In this document: positions 575-22,045 of the stretch, piece after piece
Layout: each line of letters begins with the position of its first letter
Numbering within the stretch: position 1 is the first letter of the stretch
Source: Dioscorea cayenensis subsp. rotundata
Lineage: Eukaryota > Streptophyta > Magnoliopsida > Dioscoreales > Dioscoreaceae
DNA: 64,000 bases
Direction: 5' to 3'
Assembly: GCF_009730915.1 (NCBI RefSeq)
Contig: NC_052475.1
Coordinates: forward strand, 186,001-250,000
Program-made: the position numbers and the translations under genes
Notes under the pieces: model-generated
Told to the model about the DNA's origin: nothing
Databases searched by the model: none
What the model saw: only the letters and a program-made list of their open reading frames with translations

Positions 575-1141
575 AGGTGCGCTGCAGCATGCCGTTCCTA
601 CCGCCCATGTGGTTACCCTGGATGTCCCCATACAGAGGACGTCCAAATCGGAGTGGACAACAATGCTTACGGTGACTACAACATGGACATCCTTGACAAC
701 CATGTCCTTGGCGGACGTGGAAAAGTGAGGCTGGGTGTGGGGAACGACGCTTGGGGTGACAATCGCGGCAGCATAAGAGACAACGATGTCTACAACGCAG
801 ATGGGACTGTTGACATTGGAGTGGCAAACACTGCTGGGCGTAACAGCTACATGGAAATTTATCGGAACAAGGTGGATGGCAGCAGCCCTGGTGCTCATGT
901 TCGTATGGGAGTTGCTAACGATGCATGCTGTGATAACCGCATGAAAGTCATGCGTAACACTGTGAAGAACGCCACGGATGATGTGGACATTGGCGTGGGA
1001 AACAGAGCTGGAAGGCATAACAATATGCAAGTTTATGACAACGAGGTTCTCGGCGGAACCGGAAGGGTTAAAATTGGAACCGGAAATACGGCCACCACCG
1101 ATAACAACTGCCGGATTCGTGGCAACAAGGTTTATCGTTAA
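575..1141 (+). CDS. Gene 1: six-coil tandem-repeat protein, last exon (5' end unresolved)
   Basis: Not a family I can name. After the acceptor TTGGCAG at 568-574, the frame runs 188 codons to TAA. It opens with a Cys-rich stretch (CAAACRSYRPCGYPGC) and then has six units of 24-30 residues starting at 641, 725, 809, 899, 983 and 1067. The unit pattern is V-x-[IL]-G-V-x-N-x-A-x(5-6)-[MCS]-x-[IV]-x-x-N-x-V. Alternating hydrophobics, a repeated Asn and a constant period suggest a parallel beta-helix or solenoid. No catalytic motif or membrane segment is seen. The last, shorter unit ends RIRGNKVYR and closely matches the C-terminus of gene 2 (RITGNRILR). The 5' exon is uncertain, so a signal peptide cannot be judged. 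Confidence 0.65.
   Translation, partial: RCAAACRSYRPCGYPGCPHTEDVQIGVDNNAYGDYNMDILDNHVLGGRGKVRLGVGNDAWGDNRGSIRDNDVYNADGTVDIGVANTAGRNSYMEIYRNKVDGSSPGAHVRMGVANDACCDNRMKVMRNTVKNATDDVDIGVGNRAGRHNNMQVYDNEVLGGTGRVKIGTGNTATTDNNCRIRGNKVYR
641..1138 (+). repeat. Six tandem protein coils encoded in gene 1
   Basis: Units lie at 641-724, 725-808, 809-898, 899-982, 983-1066 and 1067-1138. They are 84 bp except the third (90 bp) and the last (72 bp). They are diverged in DNA but clear in protein, so the array is old and kept by selection rather than a recent expansion. Confidence 0.8.
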
Positions 1142-1596
1142 GTACCACGAACGCAAGTCAAGAATATATCTACATATACTAGCAACCTGCTGTTGCCTGT
1201 CATAAGTCTATTAACTGGTTGTGGTCGCTGCTTTACTATATACTGTTTGATATATAAGGGCAGTTAGTTGTATTGCGTATGTCATGTGTGAAAGCTTGTC
1301 AGCTCTATATTATCTTTGATGAAATAATATGGCAGCAGTATATATATAAATATATTAAACGCTTTGTGATGCCCTGTCCCCTACAGGTTGTTGGTCTTTG
1401 TTTATATATATCATTATCATATATGGACCGGAGGAGGATGTTAAATACTTTATTTCTTTGTTCTTTTTTAATTATTTATTAAGGGAGCCGGTAAGGAAGT
1501 CCATTCCACCACCCTGGCTGCTTATAATGATCGTCTAGCTTCAGAGAGGGCAGTGACCCAAGTCTTCCCCTGTTTTTGGGTCCTCAGCTTACAACA
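1142..1596. other. Intergenic, gene 1 to gene 2
   Basis: This is the 3' flank of gene 1 and the presumed promoter of gene 2. It holds short TA runs (about 1335-1360, 1400-1425) and a CT-rich stretch beginning just before the proposed gene 2 start. No other gene or element is recognised. Confidence 0.5.
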
Positions 1597-4500
1597 ATGG
1601 TATTCTCTCTCTCTCCCTTCGAACAGAAGAACCAGGAGATCCATCATCTTGTAATCGGCCCAGGCCCATTTATTCATGGACATTAAACCGTTGATGTATT
1701 GTTCACTGGTCTTGTCTTGTTTTGTTTGTTTTCCAGGTTGGCGAAGTTGAAACTCCAACATCTGGCCCAACGGTGGACGCCGACGAGACAACAAGTTCTC
1801 CTCACCAACCAATCAACGACCAACTGGCTATGGTACCTCTGCCAGTGCCAACTGGGGACACTCCTCTGACCACTGACTTCCAGGTAACGAACTCCTCTTG
1901 GACTTGATTGCATGTACAGCTCTTCCTGCCTATTGTACAGAGGATTTGAGATTCATATGCCTTTTCCATTCTCTTGACATCCAGTTTTAACCCTTGATTG
2001 TTTTATTATTTTATTTTATTTTATTTTATTTTTTTGTTGAAATTTTGAGATTTATGATATTGATCATGCTTGTGCTAATTCATTCCATAAATGACGTCTA
2101 TTGTTAGATGTTTGACATTTGATTTTAGTGAGGTTTTTAATAGAGATTGTGAAAACACATGCTTCGAAAATAGAAAGAAAGCAATAATCTCCATCCCGTC
2201 AAAAACAAAAATAGATATCCAGATTTTACCACCATGTGAGCATTGATGATGTGCCTTTGAAAGGGAAACCATATTGCAAACCTGGATTTTTGTTTCGATT
2301 TTAGATTGGATGACAACTCCAGTTTCTTCTTCCTATTCATACATAATAGGTTCTCAAAAAACAAACTTTTTTTTTTTCCCCTTTTCAGAATGAACCATAT
2401 TTACTTGCACCTCGATCCTAATGATAATGTTGAACCATTCATCTCCCTCTCAAAATTGTCTCCACTGTATTGTGCTGTGTCTTCTGATCTCAGTTGTGTG
2501 GATAAAAATGACTACAATATTGAGAAAGCTCAAACAACACCATTGCAAATTCACAATCCGGATGGTATGGAAACAAGGATTTAGTGTGATGTAATAATAA
2601 TTACACACTATTGGCCTAGTTTGAGATAGATTTTTGAGCCTTTTTTGGTAGGCGTTCAGTCATCAGAAGATAGCTTCTTTAGTTCTGGAATTTCAAGAAT
2701 ACCTTTGTCTTCTCATCCAAACCTTCAGCCCAATGACATTGAGGCAACTACCATAGAAATTGGAGGGCTTCAATCGGCTTGTGGTGATCCATTTCATAAA
2801 TGCTTTGCACTGATAGATATTTTTTGCATTTTATTTTAGTGAGGTTGTTAAAGACACAATGAAAATGCATGCTTCAAAATTGGAAAGAAAGAAACAGTCT
2901 CATCCAATCAAAAGCAGAAATAAATATTCTAGATTTCACAATCATTTGACCATTGATGTGTCTTTGAGAAGGAATCCATATCGCAAACCTGTATTTTTAT
3001 TTCAGAGTTATATTGGATGACAAACCAATTTCTTTTTCCCGCCAAATTAATTTTTACTTGTAATGCTGAGCAATTATCAACTACCCTTTTCATTTGCAAT
3101 TCTACAAAACTATGTTTCTCCTCTCCCCCTTTTCAGAATGAACTAGGTCTAATTGCAACTCCTAGTACTATTGGTGGACCATTTAATTCTCTCTCAGAAA
3201 TGTCTATGTTGTGCGGTGGTGTGTCTTCTGATCCCAGTGGTGTGGAGAAACATGACTATGATTTTGAGAAAGCTCAGACAATGCCATCACAAATCCACAA
3301 TCCTGATGGTATGGTAACGAGGATATAGTGTGAGTTAAGAATGATTAGACACTGTTGGTCTAGTTTGAGCTGATGTTCATCTTTTTTGGTTGGTGTTGAG
3401 TGATCAGATGATACCTTCCATGGTTCTGCCATGTCAAGAATGCCTTTGTCTTCTGATTCATACCCTCAGAGCAAGGGCATGGAGGAAGCTGCCATAGAAA
3501 TTGGTGGGCTTCAATCAGCTGTCGTAAAACTCCAGATTCAGGTAAGTACTAGAATTAGTGTGCGATCATAGTGCTTTGTGAGTATCTTTTAAATTGTGAG
3601 TCATTTTGCTACTTCTTGTGTGTCGCAAATGTCATACTCCTTTTCCTCAATAGACATGATATGCCCATCTGGTAAGGGTGTTCTTTTGACATAAAATTGA
3701 GGGCATGGATCCAAGCTAGTCGAGGAAGTTGCTTGTCAGTTTTTGATTCTAGATGTTGGATATGAAATCCTTGGTTTACATAATGAATTCTAGATTTTGA
3801 ATTTAGAATTTTTTTGATTTACAGAATGGACCAAGTTTGCGCACTCCAGATAATTCTAGTGAGCTATTCAGTATTCCCCCAGAGGCATGTCTTTCTGGTG
3901 GGGCTTTGTCTTCTGAGCCGAATTATGCAGAGAAACATGAACATCATACTCAGAGAACTCAAGCAACACCAGTTGACATTGTATTTCGTGATGGGTCCGA
4001 ACCAAGAATCGGGTGCAAGGTAATTAATAAAATTCACTAATCCTTCCAATATTTGTAAGATTTAGGGTGTTGAAATCCTTAGCCAAGTACTCCTTGAAAA
4101 TACTCAGACCCATCTTTTGTGCATGTTTGGTTTCAGTCGCCAAGCTCAAAATCTTCCTCAGCTTAACTGCAGACTGGTATTATTTTCAGGAAAGTCATCT
4201 GTCACCAGGGTTGCCAGATGCAGTCACCAGGGCTACTGAAGTATCTGCATCTTCAGGTTCACCAGCACCAGCTTCTGAAGTGACTTTGTCTTCATTTTCC
4301 ACGCCTCATCTGCCTTGTTTGCAAGCACCCATGCTGCAGATTGGAGGGACTCAATTGAGCAATGATGAAACCCAGACCACATTGGTTGAACCTTCGAGTT
4401 CAACAGACATAATGAAACCTGCAAGGCATCCACCTTCCCTTCCTTATGACATACAGCCATTATCCCATTCAAACTTAGCACCAGCTAGGGAAGCCTGTGA

Positions 4501-6124
4501 TCCTGTTCAAGAAAGCCAAAGCCCATTGTACAGTGAAGAACACATACGGCAGCAAGACTATGATCCAGTCGATGGTTCATTTCCAACTGCCACTGTGAAT
4601 AGAGGTAGATACACAGGCCCGAATGCCATGCCGGTTCAGTACTCTCCATATGAAAGTTCCCAAATAAGGAGATCTCCAGTGCAAGATTACTACCCTAATG
4701 AGCCCAATTATCGGCTCCCGCGCTATAGGCAGGGAGCTCGATACCAAGGACAAAGGGAGAGCTCAAGTGCTTCAGAATTGACCTATGAGCGTCGGTCATT
4801 TGGTGGTCAGTATCAAGGACAAGAATATGATGTCTCTCGACCATATAGAGTTAGTAACCGATGGCAGAGGTACTACCCTGTTAATGATATACCAGATGAC
4901 AGGCCCTGGTCTCGTGGACGGTCCTGCCCTGTTAATGATATACCAGATGACAGGACCTGGTCTCATGGAGGTCGACATCGAGGGCGCGATTATCATGATA
5001 GCAATGGTGACAACTTTGATGATGTGAGCCAACCATTTGAAGTTCGATACAAAGAGCAGGTCTATCATCTTGGAAATGTGGAGTCTGATGATATGGCTCA
5101 ACCACATGCACATCAATACAGAAAGCATGATTATTCGGATGGGACTAATTTCTTGAATGATATGCGGCAACAACGCAGAGTTAGATATCAACAGCAAAGT
5201 CATTGCCTTGATGAGCGATACTTGGGAGAAGCACCTCTACCATATGGAAGTCATCATGAGACACAAGAGGACTGGCCTGCAGGGAAAAACTGCCCAGCCA
5301 TGCCGCAACCATGTAGAGTTCATTACCAAAGACAGGGGAATCGGCTTGGCGACAACACTGTGGATGGGGCGCCTCCTCATCATACCTCTCAATACCAAGG
5401 GAGACAGAGTTGGTCTAGCATTGATGACTTTGCTGATGTGCAGAGAAGTGAACGAGAACCAGCTAACTTCCCTGGCAATAACGATTTTGCTGATATGCCA
5501 AGGACTGAACGAGAACCTGCTAATTTCCCTGGCAATAACGACTTTGCTTACGTGCCAAGAACTGAACAAGAACCTGCTAACTTTCCTGGCAATGATGACT
5601 TTGCTGATGAGCAGAGAACCGAAAGAGGATCTGCCAACTTCCTTAGCCGTGATTCTATCCACAACGTGGCTTCTGAATGGAAGGATCACTCTCAGAGACC
5701 TGAATTTGCAGAATTTAAATCTCACGATGTTTTTCCAACCAACCATGAGACACAGGGAGGTGATTTTAAGGGAGTGTATCAAACAAGTGCTGATCCTGAA
5801 TTTCAGAAAGACCCACACAGAAGTCAGAGGTCCTGCTATCGTGCTTATGTGTTGAACCATGAACTGCAATCACAGAAAGATCAGTACTATGGTATTGGAT
5901 CAGCTTCAAAGGATGAAAACACCCCACAGCTCACTGGAGAAAATTGTGCCACGGGAGGAAAAATGTCCTCCCAAGCTGGTGAGGGAGTGGGCTGTGAATC
6001 GGGCACTCTTGTTTGTGATAATATTGTTAGTGTGCCAAACTCAGTAAATGTAGTGATTGGAGAAAGGAATCGAGCTGGTGGGAGAAGTGGTGGTCGCATC
6101 ACAGGCAATCGCATTCTCCGCTGA
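1597..6124 (+). CDS. Gene 2: long low-complexity protein ending in one gene-1-type coil (6 exons)
   Basis: Unknown family. Proposed exons are 1597-1650, 1737-1883, 3137-3308, 3408-3541, 3825-4019 and 4190-6124. All introns are GT..AG, phases agree, and the total is 2,637 nt (878 aa). The last four joins are supported by homology between exons. The first exon (18 codons from the ATG at 1597) is the weakest. The protein is Ser/Pro-rich at first, then rich in Arg, Tyr, Asp and Gln with internal duplications: a 17-residue unit at about 4876-4977 and a 19-residue unit repeated four times at 5426-5645. It is probably disordered. The last 26 residues (VNVVIGERNRAG... RITGNRILR) match one coil of gene 1, with the same distance to the stop. 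No signal peptide or membrane segment is visible. The function is unknown. The shared tail suggests it pairs with, or shares a partner with, gene 1. Confidence 0.6.
2110..3541 (+). repeat. Tandem duplication of a two-exon module within gene 2
   Basis: Two direct copies of about 710 bp: A about 2110-2822, B about 2823-3541. Similarity covers intron and exon, for example GATTTTAGTGAGG at 2121 against TATTTTAGTGAGG at 2831, and both share an exon ending in the peptide HNPDGM. Copy B holds exons 3137-3308 and 3408-3541. In copy A the first exon has a +4-nt length change and early stops, and the second lacks a usable donor, so A reads as a dead copy inside intron 2. The exon at 3825-4019 and the start of the last exon are an older third copy (shared ...LSS and ...IGG pattern). 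Confidence 0.7.
5426..5645 (+). repeat. 57-bp coding minisatellite in gene 2
   Basis: Four consecutive 57-bp units start at 5426, 5483, 5540 and 5597. Each encodes a 19-residue unit of the form DFADxxRTEREPANFPGNN. Identity is high and the frame is kept, so this is a recent, likely length-variable array. Confidence 0.85.
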
Positions 6125-6892
6125 TTGGCATGCGCATGCAACATAGCCATCACTTAATCTGTGCATCTCTTCTTTTCTTGACCTTGTTCTTGGTCGTGAT
6201 GTAATTTATTATGCAGTTTGCAGCTCTATCTGTTATTGTTGCACTAAATAATCCTTTTTATAAGGACATGATTGCCGCATTTCAGTCTCTTGTCTTCTCC
6301 ATGTTATCTTGAGTTTCCACAGTTCTGAGAACTTTGTGCTGATGTACGCATTCTTGTATTGCTCTGGATTTCCCCTTGGTATCTACTTGTGTTACTCCAG
6401 AACTCCCGATGGTATGTGGTGGTTCGTTGTGTTGAATGTCATGCATGTTCTAGTCTATCTTAAAATTATCTATGATTTTGAATACATTAGTAGGTACACA
6501 TGAGGGTTTATATCGAATGCTAATGATCTCTTTATTTTTCCTGATATTGAGTCATTTGTATATAGAATGTTTGTGTTTTTTAAGAAAATAATATCAAATC
6601 TCAATTCACACATGATAAGAGCACTAATAAGTTGAGATATTACCTCCTTATTTATGCACACTCTTAACATGGGTTATCCACTTTGTAAAAAATATAGAAT
6701 TAAATAAAACAAAATTTAATTTTTAACAATATTTGTATTTTCCAAACAACACTTCAGATAAAAATAATTAAACCACATGCATACAAAACATACAGGGAGT
6801 CTCTTTCTCATATACGCCATCAGTTTTATTTAAAAAATAATAATAATAATAAATAAATAAACGCTTATGCTATGTATTATCCAATGTTAGAG
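6125..6892. other. 3' flank of gene 2
   Basis: Holds the presumed 3' UTR, AT-rich DNA and a TAA/TAAA run at about 6838-6862. No gene is recognised. Confidence 0.5.
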
Positions 6893-7114
6893 TGCCAACG
6901 ACTTTCGGGTCTATTGGTACACGGGTCGCCGATAAAGCTCTCACCGAGTGGTGAGAGTTCGATTTCGGCTGACACATTTCTAGGAGTTATGAATAGTAGT
7001 TGTGTCACAGTGGTTCCCAAAGACTCACGTGAGCCGCCCTGCCCCCACTTGTTCCATCGAGGTTTGTGCACGCCTCCTGCCTCAGTGGGTTCGCCCGCTC
7101 CTTTTCTCCAAAAA
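6893..7114 (+). mobile_element. tRNA-derived SINE, copy 1
   Basis: About 220 bp. Near its start it holds a Pol III box-B-like sequence (GAGTTCGATTTC, about 6955-6966) beside CTCACCGAGTGGTGAG. It ends in a GC-rich 3' part and a short A-run. It aligns along its full length with the inverted copy at 12305-12534. The layout recalls the Au family of plant SINEs, but I assign only 'tRNA-related SINE'. Its target duplication is no longer clear, so it is probably the older copy. Confidence 0.7.
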
Positions 7115-7358
7115 GGTGCAACATATCAATTAGCCATAGCAATATTGGTGAGTGATGACCTCTCACCTCCTGGCATTTTTAGTGTAATTTTTTGATTGAA
7201 GCGGCCAAATCACGCTTCTCGGAATATTAGTCCAGTCCACTAAAAGCGCAAGTCTTCCGCCCACTAATGGTCTTTCTTTTTTCATTATCCACTAATCTGT
7301 TAATTAAAGTTTAAAGTCTAAACAACCACCACAGTCCATCCTCCCTCATCCTCATGGT

Positions 7359-7618
7359 CATGGTCTTTTTATAATCCGTTTTCCAATCATTATCAAAGCA
7401 AGTCCTCGTCCAAAGTCATGGTATTTTTATATATAATCCGTTTTCCAATCACTATCAAAGCAGGTCCTCGTCCAAAGTCATGGTATTTTTATATATAATC
7501 CGTTTTCCAATCACTATCAAAGCAGGTCCTCCTCCAAAGTCATGGTCTTTTTATAATCCGTTTTCAGGTCTTCCTCCAGAAGTCCAGACGGACTCATGGT
7601 CTTTTTATATACAATTTA
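7359..7618 (+). repeat. Promoter minisatellite upstream of gene A
   Basis: Direct repeats start at 7359, 7417, 7479, 7541 and 7595 (spacing 58, 62, 62 and 54 bp; the last is partial). Each begins CATGGT(C/A)TTTTTATA and continues with AATCCGTTTTCCAATCA. Units 2 and 3 are almost identical. The array ends about 210 bp before the ATG of gene A. The unit head resembles the GGTCTTTGTTTAAT motif upstream of genes B, C and D. Confidence 0.85.
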
Positions 7619-7826
7619 CAAAGTCGACGACGTCCTGAATTTGTTCATCCTTGACATTGAATGTAAATGTACGTGATCATGATCATGAGAAGTTACTAAT
7701 TAACACGGATATATGCCAAGTTGGCCGATCATGACTCCACTAATTATAAAATAAGCCAGCAAATTCCCTGCAGTTGGCTTTGCACTGATCTGGACGGAGG
7801 GAGGGAGAGAGAGCAGGCCGCTCATC

Positions 7827-8552
7827 ATGTCATACGGCAGACAACAACAGTATGGAAGCTACGACGGACGTTATGGTGCTCGAAACTATCCACCCAGGCG
7901 ACCATGGGAGAACATGAAGGAGGAAAACAACAAGGAAGCACCTCAATATCAACATCAGAGGCCTCAAGCTAATCACTGGGGTCATAACAACTCGTCAAGA
8001 CCTTCACATCAAACTAGAAACAATGAACACCCGCCAAAAGAAAAAGAAGAAGAAAAAGCAACAGCAACATATGGTTATAAACCCCAGTCAAGACACTGTA
8101 ATGGAGCATCAGGATCAGCATCAACAGACAACTACTACAGAACTGGTGGTGCTGACAAGACCAAATTAGAGGAAGATGGGAAGAGAGAGTCCAATAGTCA
8201 TTCCAATTCAAATGATTCAAAGGCTAGCAAGGACAAACATAGGGAGGAGCAGGATGTGTATCCAAGAAGTAGGCCCACCCTGGCGCACCAAGCTTACCAG
8301 CCTTACAATAATGTTGATGAAGAGGATGAAGACGATGAAGAAGAGGAAACCGGTGAGGATTTGGTGAACCAGCTGCTGACGTTGTCCCCACGTGGCCGCC
8401 ATGTCATTCCGAGGAAGGCCGGAGAACCGAGGAACGGAAACACAAAGATTGTGGTCGAAGACTTGCATGTATTCATGGGCGACAACGAGATAGAGACCTT
8501 CCAATGGAATAATAATAGGAGGGATAGAGGTAAAGGCAGCAACGCCAAATAG
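7827..8552 (+). CDS. Gene A: disordered acidic protein with cluster-type C-terminal module
   Basis: Intronless, 241 aa, no recognised domain. Residues 1-150 are rich in Gln, Asn, Tyr, Lys and Ser. Residues about 154-178 are a Glu/Asp run. The C-terminus (about 180-230) has LTLSPRGRHVIPRKAGEP and then HVFMGDNEIETFQWN, followed by a basic tail. This C-terminal block aligns with gene B and more loosely with gene C, which defines the family. No signal peptide or membrane helix is seen. The start at 7827 is the first ATG in frame, and an AT-rich TATA-like stretch (ATTATAAAATA, about 7744-7754) lies 75 bp upstream. The function is unknown. Confidence 0.75.
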   Translation: MSYGRQQQYGSYDGRYGARNYPPRRPWENMKEENNKEAPQYQHQRPQANHWGHNNSSRPSHQTRNNEHPPKEKEEEKATATYGYKPQSRHCNGASGSASTDNYYRTGGADKTKLEEDGKRESNSHSNSNDSKASKDKHREEQDVYPRSRPTLAHQAYQPYNNVDEEDEDDEEEETGEDLVNQLLTLSPRGRHVIPRKAGEPRNGNTKIVVEDLHVFMGDNEIETFQWNNNRRDRGKGSNAK

Positions 8553-9030
8553 CCTTCATCTCATCTCATCTCAAATCACTGTATTCCATGCTCTCCATTT
8601 CTTTCCTTGCTATTCTTGAATAAATGGATATAAAAAAAAACCTCGTTTAATTTGACTCTGTTTTTTTTGGGGAATGTATTAATGATTTGTGTGGAAAATT
8701 GTTGTTATTATTGTCGTCGTTGTTTTTTTTTAATATGTATGAATAAATATGAAATTAAAAGAAACCTCCATAATTTATTTTTATGTACTATTTTTCTAAA
8801 ATTTTTTTAGAAAAACTTTGTTTTACTTTGTTTGTGGACTTCTGTTGTACTTTGTTTGTTCTGGTTTTTTATGACATAAAAGAAAAACTGAAAACCACTC
8901 GTATTAAATTAAAAGAAGAACAACATATAAAAAAAACCCTGAACATAACTAAACAACAGAAAATTGAAACATAGAGTACATAATAACAAAAGAGAGAACA
9001 AGACGAAAAAAATGAGAAAATACTAAAGGA
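8553..9030. other. 3' flank of gene A
   Basis: AT-rich, with a candidate polyadenylation signal AATAAA at about 8620. No gene is recognised. Confidence 0.5.
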
Positions 9031-9039
9031 AAAAAAGAA

Positions 9040-9910
9040 AAGAACAGGGATCCACTAGGGGTGGACCAACAAACAATAATAACAACAAAAGAAACCATGG
9101 GAAAACCAAGTGACAAAACAAACTCTGAGAAAACGCTAGCTCATGTCTTAGGTGTAGACCTCGTCTCCAGTGACACTTGTTTTGGCTGACAATATTGAAT
9201 GGGATACCATAAACTCTAGACTGCGTCGAACAGTCACAATGGAATCCTTTAGCTTTGCTTTCTTTTCTTTCTGATGTTGCAAAGAACCACAACAGAAGTA
9301 TATGAACAATCTTTAAGATAATCAAAGACAAATGCAGAGATTTATCATTAAAGATGCATGCATTTTGTTCTAGCCAACTATTCCAAGTGATTTGCTCAAA
9401 TGAGCAAATCCCCGAATTCCCACATAGAAGGCCGCGGAGTCAATATCCACGAAGACAACACTTCTTGGAGAGAAAGAAGAAATAGCTGGAAGCTGAAGAA
9501 GGCACCCAAAATAGCCCCAGATTTGTTCCGCAAAATTACAACGAAGAAAAAGTAGTCTACAGATTCTCCCATCAACACATAATAAATGTCATAGTTGGCA
9601 AAGTGTTACACTTTCTCTTGATCAAATTTTTTAGAGTAAAAATTTTGTTTTTCCAAATTAGCCAATTGAAAAGATTGATCTTTTTCGGGCAAATAGACTT
9701 CTAGAAGTGACGAATCATCTAACACCGGAGACCTCTTTCATTTAGAAAGTAGTAAAAAGATTTGACAGTGAACCTGCCATTTGAAGTGAGGCACCACCAC
9801 TTCAAATCTCTATCTTCAACATTATGAGTAAGGAGTTTTGAGTAGTGCTCATTTGCATCTGAATCTAGCATCAAAAGGTGCATAGTTAGAAGATGTGCTA
9901 GCTTTCTTAC
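9040..9910 (-). mobile_element. LINE (L1-type) 3' relic
   Basis: Reading the minus strand from about 9830 downward gives the end of a plant LINE ORF2: the zf-RVT entry motif NGRFTVKSFYYFL, and further on a CRLLFLRCNFAEQIWGYF-like block. Stops and frame changes interrupt it. It is related to, but well diverged from, the LINE at 14150-18205, which has NGIFSVKSFYNLL in the same place. Only the C-terminal third of ORF2 is left. Confidence 0.7.
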
Positions 9911-11031: not shown

Positions 11032-11838
11032 ATGGCACACCGCAGGCAACCATATGGTGGCTGGCGCGACCACGGTCGCAGAGGTGCCGATAATGATGAC
11101 TATGAAGCCCCAAACCAGCGAGCAGCCTATGATCGTTATCCCTCACACCAGCGATCAGCCCATGCTGATGACCAACCCTCCAACCAGCGAACAGAACTAG
11201 TCCATGATCGACATCTCCCAAACCAACGGGCAGTCTATGCTCACCAACCCTCAAGCCAGCAAGCAGTCTATCCTCACCAGCCATCGGAAAGAAAGAAGAA
11301 CAACGACTATGACAAAGAAGACGATGATAATAATGATGAGACGGAGGAGAAGGCCGATGAAGAAACAATATCCGAGAAGGCTCAACCAAATGCACCTGCT
11401 AATAAATACGTTGGTGGTTATGGAACAGCATACAACAGGCCTGATCAGGATAACTCCAGCAACAGGTATAGAGATTATCGTAACAATGAAAGAACAACGC
11501 ACTCGAATCGCTGGGCGGACAGCAGGGGTGGTGCTGGGGTTGGGTATTCTGCTGGTTATGGACATAATTATAACAATGGGAAGAATGCTGCTGCTGTAGT
11601 TGCAGATGATGGTGTCGACAATGATGATGAAGAGCAGATGAGGAAAGAGTTTGCAAACCGCTTCACTCTGTCTCCAAGGCGCCAACATGTTGTTGAAAAG
11701 AAGGCCGGAGAAGCTAGCCATGGGCAGCCCAACGTTATGGTCGTCAAGGAAATGAAACTCTACTTGGAGCATAACAAGATTGAGAACTTTGCATGGAACA
11801 AGAGAGAGAAAGGGGGAAAGGCCAAAAAAACAGGATAA
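11032..11838 (+). CDS. Gene B: disordered acidic protein, paralog of gene A
   Basis: Intronless, 268 aa. The N-terminus (about residues 26-85) has five loose repeats of about 12-15 residues built on NQRA-Y-x-HQPS, then Lys/Asp/Glu-rich and Gly/Asn/Tyr-rich stretches. The C-terminus has FTLSPRRQHVVEKKAGEA and KLYLEHNKIENFAWNK plus a lysine-rich tail, aligning with gene A across about 50 residues. No catalytic motif, signal peptide or membrane segment is seen. It has the same orientation as genes A and C, each with its own promoter. The family is unnamed and the function unknown. Confidence 0.75.
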   Translation: MAHRRQPYGGWRDHGRRGADNDDYEAPNQRAAYDRYPSHQRSAHADDQPSNQRTELVHDRHLPNQRAVYAHQPSSQQAVYPHQPSERKKNNDYDKEDDDNNDETEEKADEETISEKAQPNAPANKYVGGYGTAYNRPDQDNSSNRYRDYRNNERTTHSNRWADSRGGAGVGYSAGYGHNYNNGKNAAAVVADDGVDNDDEEQMRKEFANRFTLSPRRQHVVEKKAGEASHGQPNVMVVKEMKLYLEHNKIENFAWNKREKGGKAKKTG

Positions 11839-12304: not shown

Positions 12305-12534
12305 TTTTTTAGGGAAGAGGAGCGGGGCGAACCCACTAGAAACCCAGGGACGTGCACAAGCCTCGGTGGAACAAGTGGGGACGAGACCGCGCTCGCGTGG
12401 GCGCTAGAACCACTCGTACACAATCACTATTCACAACTCCCAGAAATGTGCCCTCAGCCAAGAATCGAACTCTCACCACTCGGTGAGAGCTCTATTGGCG
12501 ACCCGTGTACCAATAGACCCGCAGGTCATTGGCA
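12305..12534 (-). mobile_element. tRNA-derived SINE, copy 2, intact ends
   Basis: Inverted relative of the copy at 6893-7114. On the minus strand it runs from TGCCAATGACC through the box-B-like GAGTTCGATTC to a GC-rich end and an oligo(A) tail. It is bounded by a perfect 20-bp direct repeat, AATGTTATGCATCATAGTTG, at 12285-12304 and 12535-12554. That is the footprint of target-primed insertion and points to a fairly recent event. Confidence 0.85.
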
Positions 12535-13118
12535 AATGTTATGCATCATAGTTGCATGACAGAGGATTTATATTAATGAACATTCAAGTTTCATTCATTT
12601 AAAAAATAATCAACGCATCATTTCTATGGTGTTTAGGATTTAATAAATTACTGATTTTTTTGTATATATATATATATATATCTTTAAGGGGTCGTTAAGC
12701 CACTGTAACATATGCACCTCCGTATTTGTCTGGATAAATCAAATGCATCAATTGGATTCAACATAAACCAAGAGCAAGAAATGTGAAAGAAGCTAAGCAT
12801 ATATATTATTGTCTATATATATAGATATGAACCAAGTAGGAAGCAAGGTTAAGGTTAAACAAAGACATTCTTCCTGAGGCCATTGACAAATAATATGAGA
12901 GGTAAGGTAAGCAATTGGATAGGTCATGTCAACGTCGGTGGTGTCACCAACCGATCGATCGATCAGCAACAGCAAAATAATTTAACACGTCCAAAGTCCA
13001 CTCAAAGGTTGGATGAACATTATATACAATTAATGTTGATTTATTTAAGAAAGACTGATTTTTCTTAAATTAAGAAGGAAAGGTCAGAAATTCTTATTCA
13101 ACGATCATTCGTTCATGT
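12535..13118. other. Intergenic, SINE to gene C promoter
   Basis: AT-rich with a TA microsatellite at about 12661-12680. From about 13070 the sequence is duplicated at about 20700 (pseudogene D). No gene is recognised. Confidence 0.5.
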
Positions 13119-13220
13119 GGTCTTTGTTTAATGTGTTTTGAATCAGCCCAAGCTTCATTCACTGTCAACTAATCAAGCCCCACCCACCCTTTTTTTTTCC
13201 TTTCTCCCTTGCTAATATAT
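13119..13220 (+). promoter_or_regulatory. Gene C promoter: shared motif and TATA-like box
   Basis: GGTCTTTGTTTAAT lies at 13119-13132, and a TATA-like CTAATATATG at about 13212-13221, roughly 100 bp before the ATG. Both survive in the duplicated locus D (20742-20755 and about 20838). This marks the extent of the duplication and suggests these are the working elements. Confidence 0.5.
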
Positions 13221-13316
13221 GTCCAATGATAAACTCTTCACAATTTACAAGAAAAATAACTTGATCTTGCAGTCTGTCTAGATTCAAACCACATCTGAGT
13301 GATCAGTTTCATTGTG

Positions 13317-13826
13317 ATGGGATCAACCATGCGGCGCTGGAACCGGTACTACGATGAAGACGATGGTGATGATGATGACTATGCACAGAGAACAAGGGTG
13401 GTGCCATGGCAAGGAGGAGATGATGATGACGATGATGATGATCAGAGAGAGAGAGGGCATTCAAGGGCGCCTCCTCCAAGACGTCCCATCCCGCAGCCTC
13501 CAACACGCAGAGATAATCCGGATGATGATGATGGTGGTGGTGATAAGAAGGAGGTTGTTGATGACAATGATAAGGAGGAGGATGATGATGGGAGAGAGAG
13601 TGAGGATTTAGGAGCTCGTCCAAGGAAAGTTTATCCAAAACCAAAGGATGGTAAAGATGATGTAAGTGGTGCGTTAGCAGGGTTACTTGACAAGTTAAAT
13701 GTATCTGCTGAAGATGGCCATGACTCTAAGGGTGGCAACATCAATGTGCACCTTCATTTGGAAGGTAATTATTTTGAGAATTTCACATTTAGCAAGAAGG
13801 AGAAGGGTGGAGGCCGGCGTCATTGA
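13317..13826 (+). CDS. Gene C: aspartate-rich small protein of the cluster
   Basis: Intronless, 169 aa from the ATG at 13317; a second in-frame ATG is at 13329. The middle is dominated by Asp/Glu runs encoded by GAT repeats, with a Pro/Arg stretch (APPPRRPIPQPPTRR). The C-terminus has ALAGLLDKLNVS and then INVHLHLEGNYFENFTFS plus a basic tail. The latter matches the HVFMGDNEIETF and KLYLEHNKIENF blocks of genes A and B. It is highly acidic and probably disordered except for the tail. In duplicate D the first ATG position is GTG and only the second ATG is kept, so the start may be 13329. The function is unknown. Confidence 0.7.
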   Translation: MGSTMRRWNRYYDEDDGDDDDYAQRTRVVPWQGGDDDDDDDDQRERGHSRAPPPRRPIPQPPTRRDNPDDDDGGGDKKEVVDDNDKEEDDDGRESEDLGARPRKVYPKPKDGKDDVSGALAGLLDKLNVSAEDGHDSKGGNINVHLHLEGNYFENFTFSKKEKGGGRRH

Positions 13827-14140
13827 CAGCCTCCCAGTGAAAATTGCATTAAGATATATCATCCATTCATCCATCCATCCACGGTATCCACCCATCCATT
13901 TGCTAGCTGTGTCTTTGCTGGAGTGAATGTTTTGTGATTCAGTTCTTTCTCCTGGTTGAGTTGTGTGATAATGAATAAATGCACTGTTAAGTTTTAAACA
14001 AAAATTGAAAAAGAAATTACGAGAAAAATGTGGTTTATCCACATTTTCAAGAAAAGAAAAAAAAAATTGGAGAAAATATAAAACCAATAATTCAAAGGAT
14101 TATTTTTGAGATTGGAAACCCACAAATATATTAAGTTATA
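13827..14140. other. 3' flank of gene C with a LINE-tail-like segment
   Basis: The 3' UTR (to about 13985) is matched by locus D. At 14029-14067, TGTGGTTTATCCACATTTTC followed by A-rich DNA resembles the 3' tail of the LINE that follows, so a small LINE end fragment may sit here. Confidence 0.45.
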
Positions 14141-14149
14141 ATAAGAAAC

Positions 14150-17100
14150 ATATAGATCATCTATTGAGAACAAAACTTCGTCCAAACCCTGCCTTATTTC
14201 CGATTGGAATGATGTGCAACTTGTTAAATTTTGCGATGCATGTGGTATCTCGTTTACACATTCTGAAAATGCATGTTTGAATCACATTCGCCACTTGGAA
14301 CAGTCACATTTAGCCCCTTCTAGGGATTTGGCGTCCTCCTATGAGGATCGCGTTAACACTAGTTGCCCATGAATATTATTACCTGGAATGTTAGAGGGCT
14401 AGGGAAACCAGCCAAAAGGTTTCTAGTGAAGGATTTCTTAAATATGCACTTTGCCGATGTATGTTGTCTTCAAGAGTCTAAACTCGAAGAGATTTCCCCT
14501 TCATGTTGGAGGGAGATTGGTGGGACTCGACTTGATCAATTTTGTTTCCTCCCGGCTCGCGGCTCTGCGGGGGGTATTATCCTTGGTTGGAATGGTGCGT
14601 TTTTAACGGGAACGGTCGTCTTGAGGGGGTCCTTTAGTATGACTGTGGAGTTTCTGTCCATAAGAGAGAATTTGGCTTGGAGATGTACTACGGTCTATGG
14701 GCCTAATGCTCGATCATTGAAAGCGTGTTTTTTTGGGATGAGTTGCGTGCCAGTGTGGGCCCCCCTGGGTTACCTTGGATTATCTGCGGCGATTTTAATG
14801 CTACATTTGACTTGGGCGATAAAATTTCAGGTCAGCCAAATTTTGAGGACATTAGAATGGCAAATTCGTTTCTTCAGGATCTCAAATTGGTCGAACCACC
14901 GGCGGTGGGTCGCAGATTCTCCTGGACCAATGGACAAGCTGATCCGATCTGGGTGAAGCTTGACCGTTTCATTGTGAATGACGACTGTGCTCGCTTATTT
15001 CCTAAGTTGATCCAGAACAGTTTACCCCGGCTGGGTTCCGATCATGTCCCTATCAGGCTCGAATTCGAATGTCATCATTTTGTCCCGCGGCCTTTTAGGT
15101 ATGAACTGGCTTGGTCCACTAATGAGGAATTCGAGAGCCATGTTAGGAAGTGGTGGGAGGAATGTGTCCCCACTGGCTGTGGTGCTTTCATCTTAGCTAA
15201 AAAGTTAATCTTTCTTAGAGGGCAGCTGCGCCACTGGGCAAAGTTTTCATTCGGCTCCATCAAACTTAGGAAACTTGCTCTGCTCCTTGAGTTGGATAAG
15301 CTAGATTCGGAGGCTGAAAATAGGATTCTTTCTCACTCTGAATCTAAACGTGAGGAGGATTTGAGAATTGAGATGTCCATGATCAGTAAGCAGGAGGAGT
15401 TATACTGGAAGCAAAGATCGAGACTGCAGTGGTTGAAAGAGGGTGATGACAACACGAGGTTCTTCCATATGGTGGCGAATGGCCGTAAGAATAGGAATTT
15501 TATTCCTAGTATCAATCTTAATGGAACCACAACGACGGATTCTAAGGAGATTGGGAAGGTTTTCGCTTGCCAATTTCAACACCAATTTGGTCAAAAAGCG
15601 CTCGGATCGGTTCATGATCGACTTCGGAAACTCCTTTCGAATAGGAATTATGTTGATTTGTCCCATCTCGAAAGACCGCTCACGTTGGAGGAAGTTAAAG
15701 GCGCGGTTTTTTTGAACTTGGGAAGGATAAGGCACCGGGTCCCGATGGTTTTCCTCTATGTTTCTTTAGACAATTCGGGAGACTATCAAAAAAATTGACT
15801 TGCTTATTCTTTGTGAGGATTTCTATTGGGGGAGAGCTAATCTTGAGCGTATCAATTGGGCTAATATTGCTCTTATTCCCAAGGTTGACTCCCCGAGTCG
15901 CCAGGGGATTATCGCCCAATTAGCCTTATCAATTCCTCATTAAAAAAATCTTATCTAAGATTTTAGCGACTCGCCTTGGTGATGTGATTAACGTGCTTAT
16001 CGATTCGGATCAGTCGGCGTTTTTGAAAGGGAGATGTATTTTAGATAATATCGCTACTGCAGAGGAACTGATCTTTAGTTTGCACAAGAGGAATCTCCCT
16101 GGTCACATTTTAAAAGTTGACTTTGCCAAGGCTTTCGATGTTGTGGATTGGGACTTTATCTTTGATCTTCTGTCGGCTAGAGGTTTTGGGGCTAGATGGG
16201 TTGGATGGATCAAATGTATCCTGGCTTCATCAAAAGCTTCAATCCTGGTGAATGGATCTCCAAACGGGTATATCAGATATCACAGAGGTCTGAGGCAGGG
16301 TGACCCTCTGTCGCCATTACTCTTTGTTTTAGTAACTGACGTTCTTAGCTCGATGTTTGCGCACGCTCTCAGCTCGAAAGTGTTAGTGGGGGTCCCTTTG
16401 GGATCGTTTGGGAGGAGATGCAATCTGCACTACGCGGACGATCTTCTGATTCTGACTGCTGGTGGGTGTGAGGACCTCAGGATTATCAAGCTGATCCTCT
16501 ATTTATTTGAAGGGATGTCTGGACTTGAAACGAATTTTTCAAAAACATGCCTTTTCTCTAGTCGACCGGTGTCTCGCCTAGTCATGCGGTCAGAGATACC
16601 TTTGCAGGTCAAGGTGGGCTTACTACCAGTTGTTTACTTGGGTATTCCAATATCTGGTAGAAGACCGCGCAAGCAGGATTGGGAAGGGGTCATTCTCAAG
16701 GTTCGAAAAAGGTTGGCGGCTTGGAAATTGCAACATTTGTCTTTAGGTGGTCGCCTCATTCTTGTGAATTCGGTGTTATCGGCTATCCCAACTTCATCGG
16801 ATGTCCATTTTCCGCTTACCTGGTTGGGTAGTTAAAGGTATTGATCGCATTAGAAGGGACTTTCTCTGGTCAGGGCCTGATATTAATCATCCGGGTTGTC
16901 GACTGGTTTGCTGGAAAAATCTCTGTCGACCTCGGGATCAGGGGGGTTGGGGGATTCTGGACCTGGATTGATTCAATAAGGCCCTGCTGGGGAAATGGTG
17001 GTGGAAGTTCATGACGGACCCTAATTGGAATGGTGCGGAGGTGATTCAATTTAATTATGGGTTATCTCGATCGAATCTTTGGCCTAATCAATCTGGAAGA

Positions 17101-18205
17101 ATCTCCTTCTTTTGGAAAGGGGTGTTGAGCTGTCTTCCGGCTTTAAGGAGTTGTCTCTCCCACAAAATCTCTACAGGCAAGGAGACATTCTTTTGGAGAG
17201 ACTGCTGGATCAACGGTGTCGCCCCTATGCATCTTTGGCCTGTCGAGTACAGTGAGTGCCGCCACACTAATAGCACTATCTATGAGCTTAGACACTTATT
17301 GGAGGAGCAGCCGTTCACCGACAATGAATTCGTCAGAATGTGTTCTATTGGTGTTCAGACATCGGATAGTCACTCAAGAGACATTAAGAGTTGGAGACTT
17401 ACTGGAAATGGGATTTTCTCGGTCAAATCCTTCTATAATCTTTTAATTGATGGAGGACTCAGATGCCCGATCTCACGATTCTTCTGGAGAAATTGGTGTC
17501 CGAGAAAAATCAATCTATTTAACTGGCTTGTGTGGCAAAACAGAATCCTTTCGTTGGAGAACTTAGCTCGAAGGAGATGTAACAGACTTTACCCATCGCT
17601 ACGTGCGTCATGTGTAACGGCGGGATTGAAACGGTCGACCACTTGTTTATCCACTGCTCCTATGCCAATCTTGTCTGGGATTACTTCATCAGAATCCTTC
17701 GCCTTCCACGCTACTGCTATCGATTCGGGATCTTTGGGGTCGGTGGAGATATGGTTTTGCACTCGGAGAGGAGGGCCTTTGGGGACTTAGTGGCGAAAAG
17801 CAATAATTTGGAATCTTTGGATAGCTAGGAATGATTGCATTTTCAATGCCAATATTTTGCATGCTCGCTGTCTCATTGTGAAAATTGATCGTATGCTTGT
17901 ATCTTGGTACTCTTCTCTCACTGGATGGACCAAAGTTGAAGTTGGAGGAGGATTTCAACACCGCTGCATCGAAGCTTAGAGTTCCTTGGCCCTCGTGGTG
18001 AAGGCATTCGAGGAGACCCGGTCTTCGAGGAGACGCTTGACCCTAGCACCGCTAGTCTTAGTGTTTTTGTTCATGGCTTTTTTGGGGGTAGATGGCCCCG
18101 GCTTGGTTGTTCTTTTTTCTCACTCATCACGCCCTAGTGGTTCGAGTCTCCGACTTTTCTATCTTATTAATGCATTGTGGTTTATCCACTTTTTCAAAAA
18201 GAAAA
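14150..18205 (+). mobile_element. 5'-truncated L1-type LINE, nearly complete ORF2
   Basis: The end of ORF1 (to TGA at 14370-14372) includes a C2H2-like motif (FCDACG ... HIRH). ORF2 starts at 14369 in an ATGA stop-start overlap. It contains the APE endonuclease (IITWNVRGLGKP, CLQESK, CGDFNA, SDHVP), the reverse transcriptase (SAFLKGR at 16014, LRQGDPLSP, YADD at about 16434) and the zf-RVT region (16980-17830). The reading frame breaks at about 14730, 15720, 15940, 16800, 16970 and 17600, so ORF2 cannot make an intact protein. The 3' end is GTGGTTTATCCAC plus a short A-rich tail near 18178-18215. The target duplication is not clear. The LINE separates gene C from its duplicate D. Confidence 0.9.
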
Positions 18206-19290
18206 AGGCCAAAAGCAAAGAAGTAATAAGTCCACGAGAAATGAAAAAATACAACACAAAAAACTACCAATAGAGATAAGATGATTTGAACGTTGTTCTA
18301 TTTCTCCTATCATTGATGTGTTGTATTGTTTTATTTTCAATAAATTGTGATTTATTTATTTATTTATTTATTATATAATAATAGTTTATCTTAAAAATAG
18401 ATAAATCACTTGAATTAAAAACCAAGTAGAGTACAGCAAGCTAATTAATACATGAGAAAGAAAAACAAACAAGCTCAATAAGCTTACAAATAATTAATAA
18501 TAATAATAACAATAATAATAATAATAATTCAAAGGAGTTAAGAAAAAACCCAGACTACCACTAAATAGCATAGTCGAAATCATTATGAATAATAGGTGAG
18601 TGATGTAAGGTTAAATCTATTGTGCCGTAGTACTATATAGTAATGTGGATCATATTATAAATATATTGTATTATTACTGTTCACTAAGTCCCATGTGGGA
18701 GAAACCATATTGTCCACCTCTCCAAGGTTGCTAAACATGAAGGATTTACCATTATGGAGTGGTGGTTATTGATATATTATTTTAAACATACATGGCATGC
18801 GCCTAATTATATTACCTAACTAACTATAACCCAATGAACTTTAAAGGTCTCCAACTCTCTTCATCTTGTTCTTCTTTTAAAACAAGCACATGCTCGGTCT
18901 CTAATTATCCTGTCGTTGCAACTAGTGTTTTTTTCCTCCATCTTTGAAGCTTCTCCATCTCCTTCCTTCGTTTTCCTATAGCATCTCATCTCTCAATTTT
19001 TTTTTTCTCTTCCTATAGCATCTCAGCTCTCAATATATATATATATATATATATTGTGTTAGGAAGACTCAATTTTTCTTCTTCAATTAAACGCTGCAAT
19101 AATTCACTGTAATAACTAACTATAATAACTAGCTACAACAATGAGCCAAATTAAAACTACAGTAATGAGCCACATAATTTAAAGCATCACAATTACGCCT
19201 GTTGTGCCTGTGATTGTTGTGTTTATTTCAGGTTGCTTGTTAATGAATGTTGTGTTCTTGACACAATATATTAATAATATGCTCTTTGGT
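18206..19290. other. Intergenic, AT-rich
   Basis: Holds TTTA and TAA microsatellites (about 18351-18372, 18495-18528), a short direct repeat (TTCCTATAGCATCTCA at about 18973 and 19011) and a TA run (about 19034-19054). No gene is recognised. Confidence 0.5.
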
Positions 19291-19299
19291 GGAAAGAGT

Positions 19300-20215
19300 T
19301 TTTGGGGTTCCCGGCATTGCAATAGTGAAAACTCAGTAGAAGTTACTGTAGCAACATTATATTTTATGGTATTGTAGCACTATTACTGTTTATGTATGCG
19401 ATCTCTATGTGGACCGCAAGACACTCGCAAACCTCTCTGCCTACCCATATATGTGGGTCGCAAGGCACCTGCAAGGCTTACTGTCAACTCTATGCAGCCT
19501 TTATGCGGGCCGCAAGGCTTTTAGGCAACTCTATGCGGTCTCTATACAGGCTTATAACCCTCCTAAGTCAAATACAACCTTAGCAATTGCAATTCTAACC
19601 CCTATTTATGATTTGGAAAGAGGTAATGTCTACAAAAGTGACGAAATGCATACAATTAATGGAAGATAACAAATTTTAACGTGGAAACCCTTCAAATCAA
19701 GAAAAAACCCACGAGGCCCCTTAGAGTCTCTTAAAATTTTCACTATATCAACAATGGGATAACAAGAGGGTTCTTTCTCTGGATGCAACTAGAGGTTTAC
19801 AACAAAAAGGCAAGATGCGCATCAACAAGATCCTCACAAACAACACATACACCTCATCAACTCAATGATGGATAGATCTGACTAAGAAGTCAGGCCCGGA
19901 AAAGGCTCTAATAGGTCTTTTCCATTCGAACAAGAAGAGATTAAAGAAAGATCAAACCCAGTAGGTTAAGAGAGCTATCCGCAATGATTCATTAACTAAA
20001 ATTAATTTGAGCGAAATCCGGCACCGTTTTGCATCAGATTATCTTGCTTGCTCAAACCCTAACCCCTTTCTTCTTCCTCTTTATTTTGGTTTCCCGCCTC
20101 TTTCCCAAACAAGCTACAGCGCGCAACCCCTTTTAACATATCTCTTTCTTCCCTTCACACGAGTGAATTTCTCATTTTGCCTTTCAAACCTTCCACTGTT
20201 GACATAGTGTTTTTT
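19300..20215 (+). mobile_element. Possible LTR-retrotransposon fragment (Copia-like LTR relic)
   Basis: The segment carries AACGTGGAAACCCTTCAAAT followed by a AAAAAACCCACG block, a phrase I associate with Copia-type LTRs in plants. A GC-rich stretch with an imperfect repeat precedes it. No internal coding region is recognisable and the ends are uncertain. It is best read as an old, broken fragment or solo LTR. Age and exact family cannot be told from this copy. Confidence 0.3.
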
Positions 20216-20340
20216 TCCTTTGTCACTTAATGTATTTGGCCAAAACCCCATTTATTTTTTTCAGTCAAAATACCAAAGTGGTTTCTCTATTTTGCGTTTT
20301 TCGCCATTTTAATCTCTATAATATAAAATCCGTCTTTTTG

Positions 20341-20568
20341 GTCATCATATTTGCACATTTCCGTCCTTTATTACCTGACGAATCCATCCTTTTGATTCTC
20401 GTATTTGCACATTTCCGTTTTTTTTGTCCCTCCAGTTCATTAGCTGGAGAGACCAAAAGGGTGGATCCGTAAACTGGAGAGACAAAAAAAAAACCGAAAA
20501 TGTGCAAATATACAATGACCAAAAAGATGAATCTGTTAGCTAAAGGACAGAAATGTGCAAATATGAGA
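20341..20568. mobile_element. Fold-back element with 95-bp inverted arms
   Basis: The left arm (20341-20435) and right arm (20474-20568) are inverted copies around a 38-bp loop. Shared features include ATATTTGCACATTTC, repeated twice in each arm, and a T-rich stretch before TGTC(C/T)CTCCAG. There is no coding capacity. This fits a MITE or fold-back transposon. Similarity fades outside the arms, so the element may extend further, about 20300-20620. Confidence 0.7.
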
Positions 20569-20699
20569 TAGTAGAAAGATTATTTTGATATTTTAATATA
20601 TTTCTTCTACCCCACAAATATGGCTGAAACCAAACAAGCTGAACAATATTCACAATTAATTGTGATTAAAAAAGTTTGTAAGTTGGTTTTAATTAAGAA

Positions 20700-22045
20700 T
20701 GCAAGGTCAGAAATACTTATTCAACGATGATTCATTCATGTGGTCTTTGTCTAATGTGTTTTGAACCAGCCCAAGCTTCATTCATCATTAGCTAACCAAG
20801 CCCCACACACCCCCTCCCCCTTCTTTCTTTCTCCCCTGCTAATATATGCCCCAATGATCACTCTTGACAATTTGCAAGAGAAAAAGAAAAAAACACTTTC
20901 AGTCTAGCTTCAAACTACATCTGATTGAGTTTCATTGTGGTGGAATCAACCATGCAACGCTTTCTTTCAGCCATCGATGAAACCGCAGAAGACTTTGCAG
21001 GTGTGATAAAGTCGGCATGTCGAGGAAAAGATGATGAAGATGCGAGAAGGAGTAAGCATTCAAGAGGTCGTCCAAGGACAAGCAGGATGATGACGCGAGA
21101 GAGAGTCCAACAGGCAGAGATGAACCAGATGAGGATGATGATGATGATGAGCAGGGAGCAGTGGCGGTGCCAGGACTCATTAGAGGGTGTGGCAAAAGTT
21201 GACAGAAAAAAATTTCCAGCCGTTGAATAAACTTTTCGACCAGTCAACAAAAAATCTGGCATAAAATTTTCAGCAGTCGAGTGAGAAATTTTTCGATTTA
21301 ATTTTTTTCTAATTTTTTTCAAAAAAATCTAAATTTTTTAAAGTTTTTTAAAAAAAGACAATCAAAAAGATTTAAACAATAAAAATGAATACAATTAAAA
21401 ATAAAAAAATATATGAACCAATTTGAACCTAATAGATATATGAAAGAAGTCCGGTGTAAGTTGAATGTGTTTTTTTCCGTTGAAATTATGGAACTTTCTC
21501 GGATGTTTGCGTGGATTTAGTAATCATGTACTGCAGATGAAAAAAATCTAGAACCTTTGTAATTTATAATTATGAAATTTTTTTCGAGGGTTGTCTTGGT
21601 AAAATACTCCCAAAATCCGCTATCTTGAGACCACGTGTTAAAATGAGTTCGCGACGACCCGTTCAAAGAAAGCATGTGGTCCACGCTGAGTCGGTTTCGG
21701 GAATTCTTCGCTTCCACACCTCCACGCTTCTTCATATTCTAAACCGACTTAAATAACTATTAAAAAACCTAATAATTAATTTGACCGTTCAATCCCACTC
21801 CAACCGTTTAATCTCCACCGTTCGTCTGTTGCACAACTCAATCCTCAGAAGTCATAAGCTAATAATTTTTTTTTTTCCAGCGAAGGGTGTGGCGGATGTC
21901 CCTCCTCGCCACACCCCGGCGCCGCCACTGGCAGGGAGTATTCAAGAGCTCATCCACCCATGCACCACCCTCCAACACGCATGTGTCTTTGCTGTGATTC
22001 AGTTCTTCTCTTGCTTAAGCTGTGTGATAATGAACAAATAATACA
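20700..22045 (+). pseudogene. Locus D: decayed duplicate of gene C, split by a hAT element
   Basis: The 5' flank matches that of gene C closely (shared GGTCTTTG(T/C)TTAAT-type motif at 20742, CCCAAGCTTCATTCA, CTAATATATG). The 3' flank (about 21960-22045) matches the gene C 3' UTR (GTGATTCAGTTC, GTGTGATAATGAA). The coding part keeps the second ATG (20952) but only about 69 codons remain before the insertion. The poly-Asp middle is mostly lost or out of frame (GAT runs read as Met), and the C-terminal FENF module is absent. The inserted element at 21159-21930 supplies a chance stop. A functional product is unlikely. Confidence 0.8.
21159..21930. mobile_element. Non-autonomous hAT-type transposon (772 bp)
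   Basis: The ends are imperfect terminal inverted repeats: CAGTGGCGGTGCCAGG on the left, and the complement of CAGTGGCGGCGCCGGGG on the right. It is flanked by a perfect 8-bp target duplication GCAGGGAG (21151-21158 and 21931-21938). The 8-bp duplication and the CAG(T/G)G(C)GG-type ends are diagnostic of the hAT superfamily. No transposase is encoded. It interrupts pseudogene D. Confidence 0.9.

Follow-up and report, generated by a model that had tools for sequence, protein, structure and literature searches.

The window analysed here is a stretch of 64,000 nucleotides, positions 186001-250000 of C5 in a 584-Mb plant genome (G000), and carries near its left end a cluster of five genes, designated 1, 2, A, B and C, with a pseudogene, D, after C. 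All five genes lie on one strand and possess open frames, with workable splice sites, where the original prediction had placed them. The C-terminal strings that it quoted are exact, and basic residues come after those of A, B and C. The proteins are assigned to types termed S (gene 1), T (gene 2) and A-type (A, B and C), and two genes to the left of the window, X165 and X168, are termed X. Bare coordinates are window positions. Comparison of the sequences indicates that genes 1 and 2 share descent, the T tail corresponding to the last 1.5 turns of an S protein that is predicted to fold as a six-turn beta-solenoid.

Gene 1 and the six-turn S proteins

The features of gene 1 are as follows.

399..401, + strand: exon 1, the start codon alone (ATG, continued across the splice site by GTAATG), from the reading of frame and splice sites
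575..1141, + strand: exon 2, a Cys-rich knob and six 28-residue solenoid turns, reaching to the stop codon, from the frame, the repeats and an AF2 model
641-724, 725-808, 809-898, 899-982, 983-1066 and 1067-1138 (641..1138), + strand: the six turns, from repeat analysis

After the Cys-rich N-terminus, six tandem 28-residue repeats fill the remaining protein. They score 45.6-54.0 bits against a profile made from these same six, so the scores are a description and no independent test. The string RIRGNKVYR, at first taken for a short C-terminal coil, is the end of turn 6, formed by its last strands, and thus closes a six-repeat array. The S definition, a Cys knob followed by six 28-residue turns, applies to gene 1 and to four further intact frames (C5:160786-161349, C10:105133-105696, C10:114572-115135 and C10:49964-50527). 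Cysteines 2, 6, 12 and 17 of the knob are invariant in the four aligned S proteins. Asn occupies positions 7 and 20 in all 24 S units, and Asn at fixed turn positions is typical of stacked Asn ladders. Conservation is mostly at the V/I, G, A, D and N that recur regularly in each turn, and no pattern at a single site stands out.

The start codon of gene 1 stands alone in its exon. ATGGT is present within 300 bp upstream at all seven S places examined, six of them in the GTA or GTG form, while 30% of random 300-bp pieces contain ATGGT and 17% the GTA/GTG form. At the S N-terminus the best mean hydrophobicity over 11 residues is 0.02 for gene 1, and a C10 copy has 0.36; for want of a strongly hydrophobic stretch, an intracellular role appears likelier than secretion.

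The AF2 model of gene 1 is a beta-solenoid with three strands per turn (pLDDT 81.3, pTM 0.80), and S proteins are accordingly predicted by modelling to fold alone as six-turn solenoids. Several points tell against this prediction: the alignment supplied to AF2 held no relatives, structure predictors easily draw tandem repeats as solenoids, and FoldIndex rates 64-75% of 31-residue windows as unfolded in two S proteins.

Genome-wide, S places number nine with gene 1 as the query and twelve with a C10 relative, on C5 and C10 only. Besides the intact frames there are partial or broken copies (C10:40110, C10:53794, C10:118082, C5:177139 and the divergent C5:169199-169777). The same three kinds, S, T and A-type, recur on the second chromosome, C10, with A-type genes adjoining S genes in both clusters, and a mini-gene is found on a third, C14. 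Neither cluster is more than 0.21 Mb from the start of its contig, the contigs being 32.8 and 23.5 Mb long. The C10 group is present in duplicate, at about 36-54 kb and 95-118 kb, with 95-98% identity in long alignments and gaps of 1000 N between the copies (61327-62326) and after them (119261-120260). The two copies may thus be uncollapsed alleles that stand next to each other in the assembly. One C10 copy has its S, A-type and T gene each frameshifted.

Selection and conservation of the turns

Four S genes make six pairs, of which five have a dN/dS of 0.12-0.27, the sixth having no defined value. Since dS exceeds 1 in five pairs, only C10_105/C10_114 is reliable, with dS 0.559 and dN/dS 0.274, and on that pair the six-turn proteins appear to be under purifying selection. 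When pairs between the two C10 genes are set aside, a turn resembles its counterpart in another gene (0.553, n=30) more closely than it resembles the other turns of its own gene (0.472, n=60), which suggests that the six-turn plan is old and is not being homogenised. The description of these genes as fast-evolving fits only the bodies of the T, X and A-type proteins and fails for the solenoid genes.

Gene 2, the T genes and their descent with gene 1

The T features are listed below.

1597-1599, 1737-1883, 3137-3308, 3408-3541, 3825-4019 and 4190-6124, + strand: gene 2 (T type), 861 residues with a disordered body, from predicted splice sites in the sequence
6002..6121, + strand: tail of gene 2 with about 1.5 turns of the solenoid, GTLVCDNIV...RITGNRILR, from alignment, hhalign and shuffles
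C14:12066000-12066188, - strand: T mini-gene (L038), far from the clusters, from the genome-wide T tail match

Exon 1 of gene 2 (1597-1599) is ATG alone, as in gene 1. The region of gene 2 that matches gene 1 spans 36-37 residues, about 1.5 repeats, and not the nine originally pointed out; the homology proposed from those short strings nevertheless stands. The tails of gene 2, C5:163536-163682 and C10:112241-112390 align together. As a profile, the three match S in hhalign at E 1.6e-5 with a probability of 79; the 36 aligned columns extend to the final residue of both. Among 4865 frames, the T profile finds S frames with E down to 4.8e-7. None of 1000 shuffles was as good as the T-S match, and none of 2000 in the profile form of the test for two T tails. 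Similarity by chance is rejected on the shuffles and the hhalign E value. Genome-wide, the tail of T163, a T gene left of the window, matches ten places, four T and then six S, these last all on C10 with E 0.6-6.6; neither gene 1 nor the frameshifted T copy at C10:47588 is among the ten.

T163 combines the Cys knob of gene 1 with the tail of gene 2, its S-like knob exon GACDPSCSERHPCGVLGCP lying behind an ATG that is followed by GT. The C14 mini-gene encodes about 60 residues by predicted splicing, little beyond the 1.5-turn module, with ATG followed by GT and an AG acceptor upstream. The common descent of genes 1 and 2 follows from the hhalign match, the genome-wide T/S matches, the ATG-only first exon in both and the knob and tail of T163.

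Gene 2 also contains a tandem two-exon duplication, 2389-2800 against 3137-3541, at 79-81% identity; the upstream duplicate has in-frame stops and reads as dead.

Genes A, B and C

7827..8552, + strand: gene A (A type), tail 8430-8549, from a single exon frame and profile
11032..11838, + strand: gene B (A type), tail 11716-11835, from a single exon frame and profile
13317..13826, + strand: gene C (A type), with the most divergent tail, 13728-13823, from a single exon frame and profile

Each of these genes apparently consists of one exon, and each tail is followed by basic residues. The bodies had been described as acidic or of low complexity throughout the cluster. This holds for A, B, C and gene 2, which are charged or of low complexity with negative FoldIndex, but not for gene 1, with a net charge of +2 over 189 residues. 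In the set of open reading frames (ORFs), a profile of only two distinct C10 A-type genes places B (E 2.5e-8), A (3.7e-6) and C (0.069) above every other frame. A, B and C thus form one family by more than chance, C being its weakest member. In genome-wide searches with B and with a C10 A-type tail, the A-type genes found are confined to C5 and C10, with one further weak match on C17 (E 0.34); gene C is not among these matches. The C tail finds itself and a stop-containing frame on C18 (E 0.78).

Relation between the two groups

Common descent of genes 1 and 2 with A, B and C had been proposed from short motifs, with a profile comparison set beforehand as the check. Compared directly, the profiles of the gene 1 type and A/B/C do not find each other (hhalign E 0.39). 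As many as 401 of 1000 shuffles are as good as the match of A-type to S, and 90 of 1000 as that to T; in the profile test of A-type against genes 1/2, the counts are 219 to 1616 of 2000. Direct homology of the A, B and C tails to gene 1 is rejected on these results. What remains of the proposal runs through two genes outside the window.

C5:165137-165646: X165, in tandem with X168, left of the window
C5:168399-168887: X168, in tandem with X165, left of the window

The proteins of both are acidic and of low complexity, and 1.5 turns can be read in their tail. Against A-type, with RDMHIVIDRNRIRN set against KDMHVHMSHNRIRN, the X tails are equalled by none of 1000 shuffles by mean score and by one by maximum, and the same counts are obtained against S. 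The profile test of X168 gives 2 and 5 of 2000. The match of X to T is weaker than that to S (2 of 1000 by mean, 35 by maximum), and the hhalign alignment of X with T covers six columns (E 0.042) and is not used as evidence. Among the 4865 frames, the X profile places two copies of one A-type gene at the top after itself (E 0.077 and 0.21). Since X165 and X168 bridge both groups, common descent of S/T and A-type is probable, the evidence being suggestive rather than proof. The A-type tail would then probably represent strand 2, turn and strand 3 of one coil.

A number of results count against the bridge and, with the failed direct comparisons, must be set beside it. The hhalign matches carry low probabilities: X with A-type has E 0.0036 at just 9%, X168 alone with A-type E 0.0017 at just 16%, and X with S, in register over 33 columns, E 0.052 at just 1%. 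Among 4865 ORFs, X is missing from the matches to the S/T module profile at E up to 20, and with the S unit profile X168 has an E of 12; genome-wide, X165 matches only itself and X168. The model of the A tail, drawn as strand-GDN-strand, has pLDDT 55 and pTM 0.31, too weak to be used as evidence. The alternative that A, B and C share no descent with genes 1 and 2 and are mere neighbours, their tail being a separate small motif, is what the direct comparisons by themselves would suggest; given the X bridge and the presence of A-type genes beside S genes in both clusters, we regard it as somewhat unlikely.

Database searches and known folds

The six-turn S proteins match no Pfam, PDB, PHROG or NCBIfam family significantly. 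None of four S proteins matched Pfam at E up to 10; the best E is 0.065 in PHROG and 0.088 in NCBIfam, in one of the four in each case, and sequence search of PDB gave nothing under E 0.5 for gene 1 and the S proteins. A Pfam search with gene 1, the last exon of gene 2, A, B and C (E up to 10) returned just two sub-threshold matches, both to B (E 0.58 and 1.8). Foldseek with the gene 1 model reached E 0.065 in PDB and 0.0023 in BFVD, with none at 0.001 or below, and on a second look the structural matches are beta-helices of a generic kind, which indicate a fold class but do not include a relative. No relatives of gene 1 were found in plasmids by tblastn. In IMG/VR there was no pattern match with gene 1, and the S alignment gave 133 pattern matches of which none was confirmed; of 31 pattern matches to gene 1 in GTDB genomes, none was confirmed either. 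The literature search found no paper on the S/T/A-type family, which is weak evidence of absence for a nameless family.

The parallel beta-helices of the SufB/SufD core and pectate lyases differ from the S proteins, which have no Foldseek match at that threshold and no sequence family. The S-family turns are, moreover, strictly regular at 28 residues, and partial turns occur on other proteins. The original prediction of a lineage-specific family with a small conserved module is borne out as far as an unnamed tandem family is concerned, the rest of which diverges; the module itself is a turn of a predicted solenoid, complete and six-fold in gene 1.

Curlin repeats of the CsgA type carry the pattern G-x-x-N-x-A in each repeat and form two strands per turn. 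The S proteins resemble curlin in that pattern and differ in the three strands per turn of the gene 1 model and in the lack of a Pfam match. Pfam holds models of RHIM and of curlin repeats, and membership in RHIM/PP motif or curlin by sequence model is rejected, as none of the four S proteins matches.

Proposed mechanism and alternative explanations

We tentatively propose, as a reading still short of likely, a plant family built on one 28-residue beta-solenoid turn and kept in clusters, in which tails dock on S and assemble. S is a Cys knob with six turns, predicted to fold alone; T and X are disordered proteins ending in about 1.5 turns, and A-type genes encode acidic disordered proteins ending in an apparent half turn and a basic tail. 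Turn 6 would expose open strand edges, since it reaches the stop codon without an added cap. The T, X and possibly A-type tails, whose first strands have no preceding turn, could dock on the S face or on each other by strand stacking, so that S would act as a nucleus with the disordered arms around it as a brush or condensate. The sequences show the repeats, the homology of S and T, the A-type family and the clustering of the kinds together on two chromosomes; docking, assembly and any cellular role are what we infer from the analysis. Shared tails could be inherited without binding, and the dN/dS values of the short tails also count against the idea. Three T pairs, compared over 39-40 codons, give 0.30-0.47; of six A-type pairs, four give 0.19-0.57 and the other two are undefined.

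S might instead be a beta-helix that stays monomeric and by itself binds a ligand or metal, the knob doing so through its cysteines, with the partial coils elsewhere as inherited remnants that do not dock. The model that folds alone, the four invariant knob cysteines and the freely drifted T bodies would suit this explanation. We judge it rather unlikely because the conserved positions are the regular ones of each turn and single out no site, T tails are recognisable on three chromosomes, and the C14 mini-gene has little beyond its tail, which is odd for a remnant. A lineage-specific birth-and-death cluster without common function, in which copies duplicate, lose turns and decay, would account for the many broken or partial copies (the five S copies named above and D), for the transposable element insertions around copies and for the location of both clusters close to contig starts. 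It is an improbable explanation for five intact six-turn frames, a dN/dS of 0.27 in the reliable pair, turns conserved by position, and the retention of all three kinds in both clusters.

A further alternative is amyloid signalling in a plant: tails of S, T or X would act as templates for one another and form an amyloid beta-solenoid, in the manner of fungal NLR/HET-S and PP-motif gene pairs or of RHIM proteins. Fungal and bacterial amyloid-signalling clusters, as described in a review, have adjacent genes that share a short solenoid or amyloid motif (PMC7889193). As in fungal clusters such as NWD2/HET-S and PNT1/HELLP, neighbours here share a short solenoid module. The motif [VILM]-G-x-x-N occurs in 22 of 24 S units, and V-Q-[IV]-G, which opens turn 1 in three of four S proteins, comes near the published RHIM core, G-(I,V)-Q-(I,V)-G (PMC7885112). 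The S proteins do not show that full core; V-Q-[IV]-G is short and present in just three of the 24 units, each time preceded by D and not by G. The repeat has 28 residues, six per protein, in contrast to the 21 of HET-S/s (PMC4518210). S lacks a Pfam match and is predicted to fold as a monomer. No NLR, pore-forming or cell-death partner was recognised by eye in the listed open frames, no domain search of the neighbours having been run. As no partner was recognised and no curated motif matches, we regard the cluster as similar in layout to the amyloid-signalling clusters and not as a member of them, and we consider this mechanism very unlikely. Heterotypic solenoid stacking, with a six-turn nucleus to which disordered clients add 0.5-1.5 turns end to end, as a plant counterpart of the fungal and bacterial clusters, is a doubtful prospect in our estimate.

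The review asks whether the amyloid-signalling paradigm extends to plants (PMC7889193). The proteins of the present cluster are small, concrete candidates for testing in a plant, and their layout suits the question, with a full predicted solenoid beside neighbours that carry fragments of it. Even if the proposed docking and assembly fail, an S family that has no Pfam match and an apparent minimal member of about 60 residues would help in asking by what route repeat folds expand from single turns or are reduced to them. The cluster is also an example of tracing a family of which no more than one or two turns are left in disordered proteins that cannot be aligned elsewhere along their length.

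Pseudogene D and other features of the window

20951..22045, + strand: pseudogene D, a duplicate of the C promoter and N-terminus without the tail, from sequence comparison
21159..21930, no strand assigned: 772-bp insertion in D with ends CAGTGGCGG, from sequence
21151-21158 and 21931-21938: 8-bp target duplications GCAGGGAG of the insertion, from sequence

D had been counted among the carriers of the shared C-terminal signature. It retains the upstream and N-terminal sequence of C and no tail, as is evident from the C tail matching only itself genome-wide bar the one weak C18 frame. The insertion fits a non-autonomous, hAT-like element. Between C and D, 14141-18200 holds a broken L1-like LINE with endonuclease- and reverse-transcriptase-like frames read by eye. 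Positions 35467-36466 are an assembly gap of exactly 1000 N, and the open frames that span it are therefore not real. A short repeat, possibly a tRNA-derived SINE, lies as an inverted pair on either side of A and B, at 6893-7072 and 12351-12534, with identities of 93% over 72 nt and 80% over 45 nt.
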